64,000 nt of DNA from Treponema sp. (GTDB lineage: Bacteria; Spirochaetota; Spirochaetia; Treponematales; Breznakiellaceae). Below, one piece after another: positions 59,268 to 64,000 of the stretch. The position numbers and the translations under genes are program-made. Within the stretch, counting starts at the first letter, position 1; the number at the start of each line of letters is the position of its first letter. The stretch covers positions 1 through 64,000 of the forward strand of contig JAIRYT010000097.1 in NCBI GenBank assembly GCA_031267675.1, read 5' to 3'. The notes beneath the pieces were generated by a model, which did not search any database, was not told the DNA's origin, and worked only from the letters and a program-made list of their open reading frames with translations.

Positions 59268-60191
59268 ATGAAGATATATCATGTTATACCGGGTCTTCTA
59301 ACGGTTCTGTTCCTTTCCTGTGGAGTGCCGGAAGATCTTCCGACAGACGTTCCCCTTTCTCCCCTTGAAACGGTACGGTATCTGGCGGCGGAAAACGGGC
59401 GCGTATCCTCCTCCGCGCAGGCGGATAACGGGCAGTATCCCGGCGAGATACGGGCTATCCTTGACAAGGGATATATTGTTTTTGCCATGACGGCGGCGGA
59501 CCAGAAACCGTTCTTTTACCGTGAAGAATATACCGGGGAACTTATCGGGGTGGATGTTGAACTTGGTTATGAAATCGCGAATCTTTTGGGGGTGCGGGCG
59601 GTATTTAACCGCGATGCGGCAAGTTTTGACGGTGTAGTAACAAAGATAGTCAATAAAGAGGCGGACATCGCTTTAAGCAAACTTAGCCGTACCACGAGGC
59701 GGGCGGAACTGGTACGGTATACCGATCCCTACATTGTGTTTAGACAGGCCCTTCTGGTGAACCGTCTGGAGCTTACCAAAATAACCCTGGAGGATAAACT
59801 CCCCTATTTTATCAAACATTTTGACGGACGCATTGGCGTTGTAAAGAATTCTTCGTATGTCGGCTACGCGGAGATGAATTTTCCCGGAGCCCATATAGAA
59901 ACCTACGATACCTGGGAGCAGACCATTGACGCGCTTTTTGGGGGAACGGTACTCGCGGCGTACCGGGACGAAGGCGAGATACTAATCATCAACACGTTAC
60001 GAGAGGACGCGTCCATTTTGATGAAGCCCGTGTTTATCAATGACAAGCGTGATCCTATCGCCATGGCGGTCGCCTCCGACGCGCCGCTGCTGCAGGAATG
60101 GCTTAATGTGTTTCTTGAGGAATATCTGCTGCAAAATAAACGGGAGTTAACACCGGCCCAAATCGTTGAACGGCATTTTGGCGACGGCTGA
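59268..60191 (+). CDS. Amino-acid-type extracellular solute-binding lipoprotein (SBP family 3)
   Basis: A 307-residue lipoprotein (lipobox VLFLSC, Cys about residue 18). The binding domain runs from about 65: GYIVFAMTAADQKPFFYREEYTGEL, LIGVDVELGYEIANLLGV, KIVNKEADIALSKLSRTTRRAELVRYTDPY. Those are the lobe-1 and hinge patterns of polar amino-acid binding proteins. No ABC permease follows; instead a symporter with a related C-terminal domain lies next, 28 bases on. GGGGG precedes the ATG at 59268. It may deliver ligand to, or sense it for, the neighbouring transporter and cyclase. Confidence 0.85.
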   Translation: MKIYHVIPGLLTVLFLSCGVPEDLPTDVPLSPLETVRYLAAENGRVSSSAQADNGQYPGEIRAILDKGYIVFAMTAADQKPFFYREEYTGELIGVDVELGYEIANLLGVRAVFNRDAASFDGVVTKIVNKEADIALSKLSRTTRRAELVRYTDPYIVFRQALLVNRLELTKITLEDKLPYFIKHFDGRIGVVKNSSYVGYAEMNFPGAHIETYDTWEQTIDALFGGTVLAAYRDEGEILIINTLREDASILMKPVFINDKRDPIAMAVASDAPLLQEWLNVFLEEYLLQNKRELTPAQIVERHFGDG

Positions 60192-60219
60192 TTCGGCAGT
60201 TGATATACAAGGAGGCATC

Positions 60220-61971
60220 GTGAAGAGTTCATTTTTGAAACATCCGGCGACGGTTTTGTTCGCCGTCGCGATCGGGGTTCTTATTGGCCTGTTTAATATC
60301 CCCATATCCCGCGCTACCGGAATTGCCGATTTTGCCTCGTTTATCGCGATACCGGGGCAGCTCTATCTCTTTTACCTGCAGATGACGGTTATTCCCATTA
60401 TTATTGCGGCAATTTCTTCAAATCTGGGAAGGCTGATGCGCAACAAGGGCGGCTCCGGTTTAATCCGGCGTATAGTTTTTGTTTTTATTGCCTGTATTGT
60501 CGTCGTTGCCCTTGTCGGCGTTATCTTTGGTATTTTTGGCAGGCCCGGCGCGGGACTGGACAACCACACCCGTTCCCTTTTGTCAAAACTTATCTCCACG
60601 TCCGATACAGAGGGCATCAGCGGCGTTCTGGAACTGAGCCTTGGTACGGCGGAGGATGTGGTCAACACGACCCCGCAGCCCAATTTGGGAAATTTCTTTA
60701 GGGATTTGATCCCCGCAAATATATTTATGGCCCTTGCGTCGGGAAGCACCATGGCCATTGTGTTTTTTTCGATCATCTTTGGGATCGCCATCGGGTTTCT
60801 CAAGAACGAATCGGCCTCAATGCTTATCAGCCTGCTTACCGCGGTATTTGAGGCGTTTCAAAAACTTATCAGCTGGTCCCTCTATCTGCTTCCCTTTGGG
60901 CTTATCTGCCTTATGGCGGGGCAGATTGCCAAGGTCGGCCCCCAGATATTTATGGCAATGTCGAAGTTCATTACCCTTTACGGGATAGGTACGGGGCTGA
61001 TCTTTCTAATCGCGACCGCAGTGATATGGATACGTTCGGGAATAGCGAATCCTTTTCGCGTGCTTTCCATATTGTTTGAGCCGGTACTGCTCGCTTTTGC
61101 GACCCGTAATTCCATGGCGACTCTTCCCAGCGCCATTACCTGCCTTGACAAAAAGCTGGGTTTTGACAGTACCGCCGTTAATCTGACCCTTCCGTTGGGA
61201 ATGACGCTGGGCCGCTTTGGGAATATTTTTTATTTTGGACTGGCCGTCTTTTTTGTCGTGCAGATCTACGGTATGGCCCTGGGATTTATGCACTATGTGA
61301 TAATATTTCTGGGGGTAGTGTTTGCGGGTACCGCCACAGCCGGGGCGTCGGGGATTGTTACCCTTTCGGTGATCAGCATTATTCTGGGGCCCTTAAACCT
61401 GCCGGGAGAAGCCGTCCTGGTTATTTTTATGGCTATCGATCCCATCATCGATCCCTTTAGGACCTTTATCATCGTTTATATCAATATGGCGGCCGCAACC
61501 CTGATCGCGAAACGGAATCAGGGCAATGAACCCGCAGTAGAAGAAGAACAAACAGAGAACGATAAAAACCAGCTTTTGGTATATATCCAGGAGCCCCACG
61601 ACCGAAAGCCGCTCCTGTACCGCCGGGACGGCGTGCTTATGGGGCTGGAAATAGAGCTGCTTAATAAAATAGCCGCGGACCTGCACAAGAAAATACGGAT
61701 CATGGATACGGCGGTTCTGGGTTACGAAGAAGGAGCGGGGATAAAAAGAAAGGCGGATATTATCGCCGGCGCTGTTACGCGGAGCGAAGACGCCCCGCTG
61801 GGCTTTTCCTTTTCGCGGGCCTGGGCAACCATTACCGAAAACAACGTTAAAAAGCCGGTTTGTTTTCTCTATCCCTCCGGAAGTTCCAACGCGGTTCATA
61901 TTAACGGAATCATCGGTTCCCTTAACGCGGACAATTTTATACGGCGGCGGGTAAAAGGGGCGGCAACATGA
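60220..61971 (+). CDS. Dicarboxylate/amino-acid:cation symporter fused to a half solute-binding domain
   Basis: A 583-residue membrane protein. Residues 1 to about 440 form a DAACS/SDF (GltPh-like) transporter with conserved stretches such as AIPGQLYLFYLQMTVIPIIIAA, FATRNSMATLPSAITCLDKKLG, PLGMTLGRFGNIFYFGL and MAIDPIIDPFRTFIIVY. The tail from about 460 (LLVYIQEPHDRKPLLYRRDGVLMGLEIELLNKIAADL, split here as two motifs: LLVYIQEPHDRKPLLYRRD and GLEIELLNKIAADL) matches the first lobe of the upstream binding protein (KADIIAGAVTRSEDAP against EADIALSKLSRTTRRA). Start is GTG with AAGGAGG. Its stop overlaps the cyclase start (ATGA). This fusion is unusual; see findings. Confidence 0.8.
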   Translation: MKSSFLKHPATVLFAVAIGVLIGLFNIPISRATGIADFASFIAIPGQLYLFYLQMTVIPIIIAAISSNLGRLMRNKGGSGLIRRIVFVFIACIVVVALVGVIFGIFGRPGAGLDNHTRSLLSKLISTSDTEGISGVLELSLGTAEDVVNTTPQPNLGNFFRDLIPANIFMALASGSTMAIVFFSIIFGIAIGFLKNESASMLISLLTAVFEAFQKLISWSLYLLPFGLICLMAGQIAKVGPQIFMAMSKFITLYGIGTGLIFLIATAVIWIRSGIANPFRVLSILFEPVLLAFATRNSMATLPSAITCLDKKLGFDSTAVNLTLPLGMTLGRFGNIFYFGLAVFFVVQIYGMALGFMHYVIIFLGVVFAGTATAGASGIVTLSVISIILGPLNLPGEAVLVIFMAIDPIIDPFRTFIIVYINMAAATLIAKRNQGNEPAVEEEQTENDKNQLLVYIQEPHDRKPLLYRRDGVLMGLEIELLNKIAADLHKKIRIMDTAVLGYEEGAGIKRKADIIAGAVTRSEDAPLGFSFSRAWATITENNVKKPVCFLYPSGSSNAVHINGIIGSLNADNFIRRRVKGAAT

Positions 61972-64000
61972 AAAAGAAGTTTTTCCGCTTCCGTGTTCTC
62001 TACGGAATCATATTTATCAACGCCTTTTTTATTATTGTCTCGGCTTCCATTATTCTTTCTTCCATGTGGATAAATTCAGAAAAAAACGCCAGGGAACTTT
62101 CTGCGGCCCTTATCGAGGAAATACGGAGTTCGCTAAGCAACCGGACCCTCAATTATTTTGAGCCTGCGGAAAATACCAATCAAAGCCTAGCCTTTCTTTT
62201 GTACCACTATTTTGAAGATCCCATCAAAAACGCGGCTGATACGGAAAAAACATTTGAATATTACGCGGAAATTCTAAAAATCAACCCCCAGTTTAAAATG
62301 TTGTACTATTCCGATACCGAAGGCAATCTGGTTATGTTGAACCGGATGAACGACGGTTCGTTTTCAAGAAGATATGTGTATAACACCGAAGAGGCGATTC
62401 AGATACGGTGGAGCCACGCCAGTCAAAATTATTATGGGGCATATCCCGACATAAACGAACCGGTAGAGACCGGTTACGATCCCCGCAAGCGCTCCTGGTA
62501 CCAGATGGCGGTGGAACAAAAGTCCATGATCTGGACGCCGGTGTATCTTTTTGCCACGGATCATCTTCCCGGATTTACCTGCGCGATCCCTGTTTTTGAC
62601 GAGTACGGAGCGGTAACGGGAATAAGTTCCGTTGATATTGCCGTGGATGAGCTTTCACGTTTTCTGGGTACAATCCACCCGACGCCGGGAACCACTATTT
62701 TGATCCTGGATAAACAAAACAATCTGGTCGCGCTCCAGGCGCAAAATGACGATGACCTGGAAAAGCTCTTTGAAAAAACCCTGGACGCGGGCGGCTATAC
62801 CCTTTACAACGTGTCCGGTATCGGGAACTATCCTGACGAGGCCGTGCGTTATATTGTACAGGAGACCCTTCAGGATCAGGGAGGAATGCGGACGATCGCC
62901 TATCAGGGGAGCCGGTACGTATCAAGCCTTACCCCCATCACCGTAGGCAACGGACTGGAACTGAGCATCGGTATTATCGTACCGGAAGATGACATCGTGG
63001 GCAACGTACGAAGAAATCTTATTCATGTTACGTTATTCTCCATAGTCATCCTTGTCCTTATCCTTGTTGTCAGTTCCATGCTCTCCCAGGCAATCGCGAA
63101 GCCCATGCGGGTACTCTCCGAGGAAATGGCCAAAATAAAGACGTTCGAGCTGGATTCGGAAGTCGATATCAATACCGGCCTTCTGGAAATTCTTGACATG
63201 CGGGAATCTTTTGAAAGTATGCGCAGCGGGCTTAAAAATTTTAAACGCTATGTTCCCTCGGATCTGGTGGCGCAGCTTATTAACGACAAGGTCGACGCGG
63301 GAATCGGCGGCGAAAAGCGGGAACTTACCATGTTCTTTAGCGACATAGCCCGCTTTACCTCTATTTCCGAAAAGACAATGCCGGAAAATCTGGTAGCGGA
63401 TCTCTGTTTGTATTTTGAACTGATCTCAAAAACCATTCTTAGCCATAAAGGTACAATTGATAAATACATAGGCGATTCGGTAATGGCCTTTTGGGGCGCG
63501 CCGGTGCGGATGCAGGATCACGCGCAAAAAGCCTGCGAAAGCGCGATATTTATCCACTCCAACCTGCGCACGCTCTTTAGACAGTGGGACAACCAGGGGA
63601 AGGCCGCCTTTAATACCCGTATAGGAATACACACCGGTGAAGTTATCGTAGGAAACATGGGATACGAGGAACGGCTCAATTATACCGTTATCGGCGATTC
63701 CGTGAATGTCGCGAGCCGGCTTGAGGGGATAAACAAAGTCTACGGAACCGAAATTATTGTAAGCGAGTTTACCCGGGATCAATGCCGTGACGCGTTTGAA
63801 TTCCGCCGCCTTGACCGTGTCTCGGTAGTGGGCAGGCAGGAAGCGTTCGATATTTACGAATTGATCGCCATCAGGGATGATATCGATAAATCGCTCAAAA
63901 AGATTTACCAGTTCTATGAAACCGGCCTGCAGTGCTACCTTGACCGGAACTGGGATCAGGCGCTTAAATATTTTCTTGCGGTTTTGAAATACCGGCCTTC
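61968..64000 (+). CDS. Membrane adenylate cyclase with extracytoplasmic dCache-like sensor (3' end outside window)
   Basis: At least 677 residues; the frame is still open at the window end. An N-terminal membrane segment (about 12-32) is followed by a periplasmic sensor to about 345 with the Cache signature GYDPRKRSWYQMAVEQ and GAVTGISSVDIAVDEL, then a second span (HVTLFSIVILVLILVV, about 352) and a HAMP-like linker. The class III catalytic domain starts near 450: TMFFSDIARFTSIS (metal Asp), KYIGDSVMAFWGAP (adenine-selecting Lys and second Asp), RIGIHTGEVIVGNMG and YTVIGDSVNVASRLEG (transition-state Asn/Arg). All catalytic positions look intact, so it should make cAMP. It overlaps the symporter gene by four bases. 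Confidence 0.9.
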   Translation, partial: MKKKFFRFRVLYGIIFINAFFIIVSASIILSSMWINSEKNARELSAALIEEIRSSLSNRTLNYFEPAENTNQSLAFLLYHYFEDPIKNAADTEKTFEYYAEILKINPQFKMLYYSDTEGNLVMLNRMNDGSFSRRYVYNTEEAIQIRWSHASQNYYGAYPDINEPVETGYDPRKRSWYQMAVEQKSMIWTPVYLFATDHLPGFTCAIPVFDEYGAVTGISSVDIAVDELSRFLGTIHPTPGTTILILDKQNNLVALQAQNDDDLEKLFEKTLDAGGYTLYNVSGIGNYPDEAVRYIVQETLQDQGGMRTIAYQGSRYVSSLTPITVGNGLELSIGIIVPEDDIVGNVRRNLIHVTLFSIVILVLILVVSSMLSQAIAKPMRVLSEEMAKIKTFELDSEVDINTGLLEILDMRESFESMRSGLKNFKRYVPSDLVAQLINDKVDAGIGGEKRELTMFFSDIARFTSISEKTMPENLVADLCLYFELISKTILSHKGTIDKYIGDSVMAFWGAPVRMQDHAQKACESAIFIHSNLRTLFRQWDNQGKAAFNTRIGIHTGEVIVGNMGYEERLNYTVIGDSVNVASRLEGINKVYGTEIIVSEFTRDQCRDAFEFRRLDRVSVVGRQEAFDIYELIAIRDDIDKSLKKIYQFYETGLQCYLDRNWDQALKYFLAVLKYRP

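Follow-up and report, generated by a model that had tools for sequence, protein, structure and literature searches.

What would bring a solute-binding lipoprotein (SBP), a symporter-like membrane protein that ends in part of such a binding protein, and an adenylate cyclase together in one operon? This arrangement lies at the end of the window, the 64,000-nucleotide stretch of a Treponema sp. contig analyzed here; the named close relatives of the source genome are uncultured Treponema MAGs, probably of termite-gut origin. An initial annotation of the DNA had proposed that amino-acid uptake and cAMP production are linked at this locus, with the half binding-protein domain acting as a sensor or occupancy gauge.

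The gene order is SBP, SDF-lobe fusion, Cache adenylate cyclase, and Asp/Glu racemase (Table 1). The initially assigned positions of the first three genes hold, as does the four-base overlap (ATGA) that the cyclase start codon at 61968 forms with the 3' end of the SDF fusion gene. What had been read as a three-part operon does contain the trio, yet it continues with the racemase just beyond the window, joined to the 3' end of the cyclase gene by a second ATGA overlap. The racemase sequence shows two Cys motifs, ACNTAH and GCTEL. The cyclase was rightly described as having all its domains, although the window holds its gene only to position 64000 and the gene ends at 64100. The upstream SBP has the two lobes of a family-3 binding protein and retains both the lobe-1 Ser/Thr/Arg residues (S-x-T-x-x-R) and the lobe-2 Asp; the ligand Arg and the lobe-2 Asp are likewise retained in 20/20 partner SBPs. 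Its nearest solved chains are ancestral and Thermotoga maritima binding proteins for arginine and polar amino acids. An Rfam search of the locus gave no matches.

Table 1. Features of the operon; coordinates are window positions unless the contig is named.
Feature	Coordinates	Strand	Basis or remarks
Family-3 solute-binding lipoprotein (SBP), both lobes	59268..60191	+	SBP_bac_3, E=5.8e-17
SDF-lobe fusion gene, 583 aa	60220-61971	+	GTG start, AAGGAG ahead
SDF (GltPh/SLC1-fold) membrane domain, residues 1-432	60220..61515	+	Pfam SDF and transporter-structure alignment
Residues 331-335, sodium motif NMDGT replaced by GRFGN	61210..61224	+	alignment
TM8 substrate and sodium-site residues	61450..61485	+	alignment
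Binding-protein lobe 1, lobe 2 cut out (136 residues, 448-583)	61561..61968	+	profile comparison, AlphaFold, fold match
Cache-class III adenylate cyclase	61968..64000 in the window, to contig position 64100	+	710 aa, weak HAMP match
Start of dCache amino-acid motif, Y-x4-R-x-W-Y (GYDPRKRSWY)	62472..62501	+	alignment over all cyclases
Class III cyclase catalytic domain	63318..63842	+	two metal Asp, adenine Lys, Thr, transition-state Asn/Arg
Asp/Glu racemase	contig C57, 64097-64891, past the window end		fourth operon gene

The membrane domain of the second protein has the SDF fold (PF00375, E=2.6e-68 over residues 11-431) and aligns to solved structures of aspartate/glutamate transporters. Its TM8 substrate residues are those of the GltPh/EAAT family: D411, R414, and T415 stand at the positions of GltPh D394, R397, and T398. 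The aligned residues, to which we take the GltPh numbering and ligand roles to apply, lack the ligand set of the sodium-coupled transporters, with I418 and N422 in place of N401 and D405 and with the NMDGT motif replaced. In a tree of 47 SDF domains, the protein and its relatives form a subfamily whose separation from canonical SDF proteins is fully supported. Throughout this subfamily NMDGT has become xRFGN, i.e., GRFGN or a near variant, and every sequence that extends over the Met311 column has Arg there; nearly all canonical SDF proteins of the same genomes have NMDGT. The N401 equivalent is replaced in nearly all members, usually with Ile, Leu, or Val; the D405 equivalent is gone in the whole subfamily, where Asn occupies the position everywhere except at locus L009. 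The R397 equivalent is kept in all members and those of D394 and T398 in most; the D394 equivalent is missing in four divergent members (L057, L066, L064, L009). Judged by these residues, the protein is not a normal sodium symporter, contrary to the ordinary symporter that had been assumed, and would perform little or no sodium-coupled transport. Sodium independence alone does not imply a lack of transport, since CbrA has a Lys in its Na2 site and still carries out transport, driven by protons (PMC13022988). The retained substrate residues and the racemase neighbor point to Asp or Glu, in the D or L form, as the likely ligand.

The third protein combines a catalytic domain, a Cache domain, and a weak HAMP domain, and it carries the residues of a class III adenylate cyclase (FSD, IDKYIGD, and YTVIGDSVNVASR). 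Within the Cache domain, Y-x4-R-x-W-Y is followed by a spaced Tyr and Asp; in dCache_1AA domains of the PctA type, these residues are described as binding the amino acid (PMC10104139). This putative binding motif is present in all cyclases of our set, the last Tyr being F in one of them. The cyclase thus resembles the PctA-type receptors in its Cache domain and differs from them in its setting, as neither an SDF protein nor an SBP forms part of the receptors described in PMC10104139. In the source genome, class III cyclases give six matches and cNMP-binding domains eight, so that cAMP signaling in this organism is plausible.

A direct connection between the membrane protein and the cyclase comes from relatives in which the two are one. 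In 11 genomes, nine from family f3 (L128-L136) and two from the family of the window genome (L139, L140), the SDF domain and the Cache cyclase are encoded by a single open reading frame of 1178-1243 aa. An SBP gene lies directly upstream wherever the contig reaches that far, and a racemase gene follows in 10/11 cases. According to the 47-domain tree, the fusion arose at least two times. The physical joining of a transporter domain to a signaling output, one mark of transceptors, is realized in these relatives by 11 fusions, and in the window the two parts are separate genes. An assembly artifact, a possibility we considered, is ruled out by the 11 independent genomes with the fusion and the 23 with the lobe.

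Three loci show irregular versions of this architecture. At L148 (1775-5482, minus strand, genome G629), a degenerate second SDF domain (E=2.3e-16) forms one protein with a Cache cyclase, and a separate SDF gene and an SBP gene adjoin it. At L141 (4462-6204, minus strand), the C-terminal end of the SDF protein is a fragment of a cyclase N-terminus (matched residues 472-580) and a full cyclase lies further downstream, which looks as if a fusion had been broken. L041 (5710-7622, minus strand) holds a lone SDF protein of the subfamily that has also lost the D394 equivalent, with no signaling gene beside it; the next gene encodes a small protein that matches Germane weakly.

Taken over all loci of the subfamily, a signaling partner is found at 39/41, with none visible at L041 and L137. 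All 22 lobe-bearing loci have one (L095 and L097 being counted as one gene split at a contig end): a cyclase in 16 cases, a chemoreceptor in 3, and a kinase in 3. The other 17 partnered loci comprise the eleven fusions, five loci with a separate cyclase, and L148. Where a lobe-bearing locus has no cyclase, the signaling gene directly precedes the SBP gene and encodes a dCache chemoreceptor (L079, L081, L084), a Cache-PAS hybrid histidine kinase (L087), or a REC-HisKA-HATPase-REC kinase without a sensor domain (L090, L097). As a control, 26 other, mostly canonical SDF loci from the same genomes were scored for SBP, cyclase, and racemase genes, though not for chemoreceptors or kinases; no such SBP or cyclase occurred within about 1.5 kb, and a racemase was present at 7/26. 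Racemase genes adjoin subfamily loci (L040, L147, L036) as well as those canonical loci (L010, L013, L015, L016, L020, L024, L026), which hints at D-amino-acid metabolism.

The initial annotation had made its sensing idea depend on conservation of the trio in other spirochaetes, and the gene set proved to be conserved across Spirochaetota. A profile of the SDF subfamily reaches further than the lobe, with matches in additional families within the order and beyond the class. The order SBP-SDF-cyclase-racemase without a lobe occurs in genomes G036 (L040), G359 (L138, where the SBP reading frame is interrupted), and G453 (L147), the last of which belongs to another class than the window genome. 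The operon is thus more widespread than the lobe and probably older.

We favor, with moderate confidence, the reading that the operon encodes one membrane receptor complex by which cAMP is controlled in response to a polar amino acid, acidic or of similar type. In this scheme, ligand would be captured outside the cell by the lipoprotein SBP, and the SDF-like protein would serve as a transporter-derived receptor or transceptor held beside the cyclase, which has a further amino-acid motif in its Cache domain. Cyclase output, and hence a presumed rise or fall in cAMP, would be set by the ligand state of SBP, SDF, and Cache. The proposed link between amino acids and cAMP is strengthened by the phylum-wide gene order, the repeated SDF-cyclase fusions, and the motif in the cyclase. 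A less likely alternative is that the SDF protein is a working sodium-independent amino-acid transporter (proton-coupled, an exchanger, or a facilitator) fed by the SBP, while cyclase and racemase are merely co-regulated and the cyclase senses through its Cache domain alone. This would accord with the racemase at most loci and beside canonical SDF genes, with the retained substrate residues, with the amino-acid motif in the Cache domain of every cyclase, and with CbrA, a transporter-kinase fusion that moves histidine with a Lys in the Na2 site (PMC13022988). Co-regulation alone, however, poorly explains why SDF and cyclase were repeatedly fused and why partners were swapped, and two of the partner kinases lack their own sensor. 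Speaking against the receptor reading, the racemase neighbor and the kept D394, R397, and T398 equivalents fit real Asp/Glu uptake, so that the protein may still transport with another coupling ion, and two subfamily loci lack a visible signaling partner.

By analogy, the nearest precedent for a complex of an SDF protein and a sensor is DctA-DcuS of Escherichia coli, in which the SDF protein DctA docks on the sensor kinase DcuS via the cytoplasmic helix 8b after TM8, independently of transport (PMC8307970). DctA works as co-regulator of a sensor with an extracytoplasmic domain (a PAS/Cache kinase in DcuS) through a C-terminal cytoplasmic element behind TM8, and the spirochaete SDF protein would do likewise. 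DctA, however, is encoded apart, actively transports, and has no more than a short helix; the spirochaete unit differs by its lost sodium sites, its fusion to a folded lobe or an enzyme, its cAMP output, and the added SBP. CbrA and other SLC5/STAC sensor kinases likewise unite a transporter fold and a signaling output in one polypeptide, and CbrA shares with the SDF subfamily a basic residue in place of a sodium site (PMC13022988); they differ in having the SLC5/LeuT fold, a STAC linker, and a histidine kinase, with neither SBP nor cyclase. The ammonium sensor kinase Ks-Amt5 also uses a transporter domain fused to an output as a sensor, there with the Amt fold and a kinase (PMC5764959). Receptors derived from transporters are known for the SLC5 and Amt folds, with kinases, and a glutamate-transporter fold combined with cAMP, an SBP, and interchangeable outputs would widen this class. 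A literature search that covered few subscription papers found none matching the SDF-cyclase unit or an SBP_bac_3-symporter architecture. Spirochaetes would gain an amino-acid-to-cAMP input that is testable in E. coli, and the subfamily offers natural experiments in the form of fused and unfused, lobed and lobe-less, and cyclase, chemoreceptor, and kinase versions of one input.

There remains the C-terminal region itself, which had been matched to lobe 1 of the neighboring binding protein. Pairwise comparison with that SBP is weak (BLASTP, 27 aa, E=0.002) and insufficient alone; the Pfam SBP_bac_3 match of the isolated lobe (E=1.5e-4) is under the cut-off of that profile, and phmmer found no significant match in the PDB. 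When a profile of 24 lobes is compared with one of 20 partner SBPs, the relationship becomes clear (94.9% probability, E=4.7e-8). An AlphaFold model of the lobe built from five sequences reached a pLDDT of 81, and its best PDB matches are structures of T. maritima ArgBP domain 1 on its own (7a99, 6y16, 6gpc; E=2.3e-7, TM 0.70, 123 columns), which supplies the structural match to a binding-protein lobe that the initial annotation had called for; the next-best match is domain A of LAO (6xks, E=3.5e-5). Full-length SBPs align to the model across more than 200 columns including gaps, as a missing lobe 2 would predict. In the model, then, the supposed half domain is indeed a lobe 1, yet a complete family-3 lobe 1 from which lobe 2 has been cut out and not a plain truncation. 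It resembles TmArgBP domain 1 in its one-lobe fold with lobe 2 deleted, and would be a natural counterpart to that engineered single-lobe protein, which binds ligand; the lobe found here is part of a fusion, would lie in the cytoplasm, and is devoid of the ligand Arg. A lobe profile detects the domain in 23 genomes, all of the window's family (E up to 1.9e-24), and after a gap begins to match ordinary SBPs at E=4e-8; a search of 394 genomes at the order level and 393 at the phylum level showed it in none from another family.

The AlphaFold model of the full-length fusion (pLDDT 45) was too poor for topology or interface, and topology was read from the SDF-cyclase fusions and from hydropathy. 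In the fusions, the catalytic domain can be cytosolic only if the cyclase part that follows the SDF C-terminus starts on the cytoplasmic side, and no transmembrane segment separates TM8 from the lobe; SDF C-terminus and lobe are thus predicted to be cytoplasmic, on the same side as the catalytic domain. The absence of that segment also rules out the lobe as an extracellular substitute for the SBP. That the lobe is a cytoplasmic amino-acid sensor reading intracellular ligand, in the manner of the occupancy gauge first proposed, seems to us quite unlikely: isolated TmArgBP domain 1 was crystallized with arginine (6gpc), so that a single lobe can bind, and the lobe is conserved in 23 genomes, but it lacks the second lobe, its ligand Arg is absent in 24/24 copies compared with 20/20 retained in partner SBPs, and the S-x-T-x-x-R motif is not conserved, conservation following another pattern (G-x-EI, AG, P-x-G, LCFL). 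The gauge is weakened further because the wider family couples SDF and cyclase without having the lobe. A role in docking is more likely, in which the Treponema-clade lobe would be a cytoplasmic, non-binding docking or regulatory domain tying the SDF protein to its signaling partner. Least probable is a functionless, drifting remnant of the upstream SBP gene, for although the lobe is limited to one family, is cut off in one genome by a stop codon in frame between it and SDF, and has an easy source in the adjacent gene, its motif is conserved over 24 copies, lobe 2 is cleanly excised with a closed fold, and the lobe is reused on an unrelated protein in two genomes. Considering membrane domain and lobe together, we tentatively suggest, with more doubt than assurance, that spirochaetes have turned an SLC1 fold into the membrane core that reads the ligand for a receptor adenylate cyclase, a core loaded by an SBP and combined with exchangeable cyclase, chemoreceptor, or kinase outputs, and that a natural one-lobe domain has been reused inside the cell for docking.

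Two further kinds of lobe context were observed. At L035 (569-2797) and L078 (2-6466), the same lobe ends an unrelated membrane protein of ~750 aa; at L078 this protein follows a chemoreceptor gene and an open reading frame with an MFS domain and a similar sensor-like region ahead, making up a second possible transporter-signaling set. At L089 (6386-8314, minus strand, genome G154), a lone in-frame TAA splits SDF from lobe, which could reflect a pseudogene, a split gene, or readthrough.
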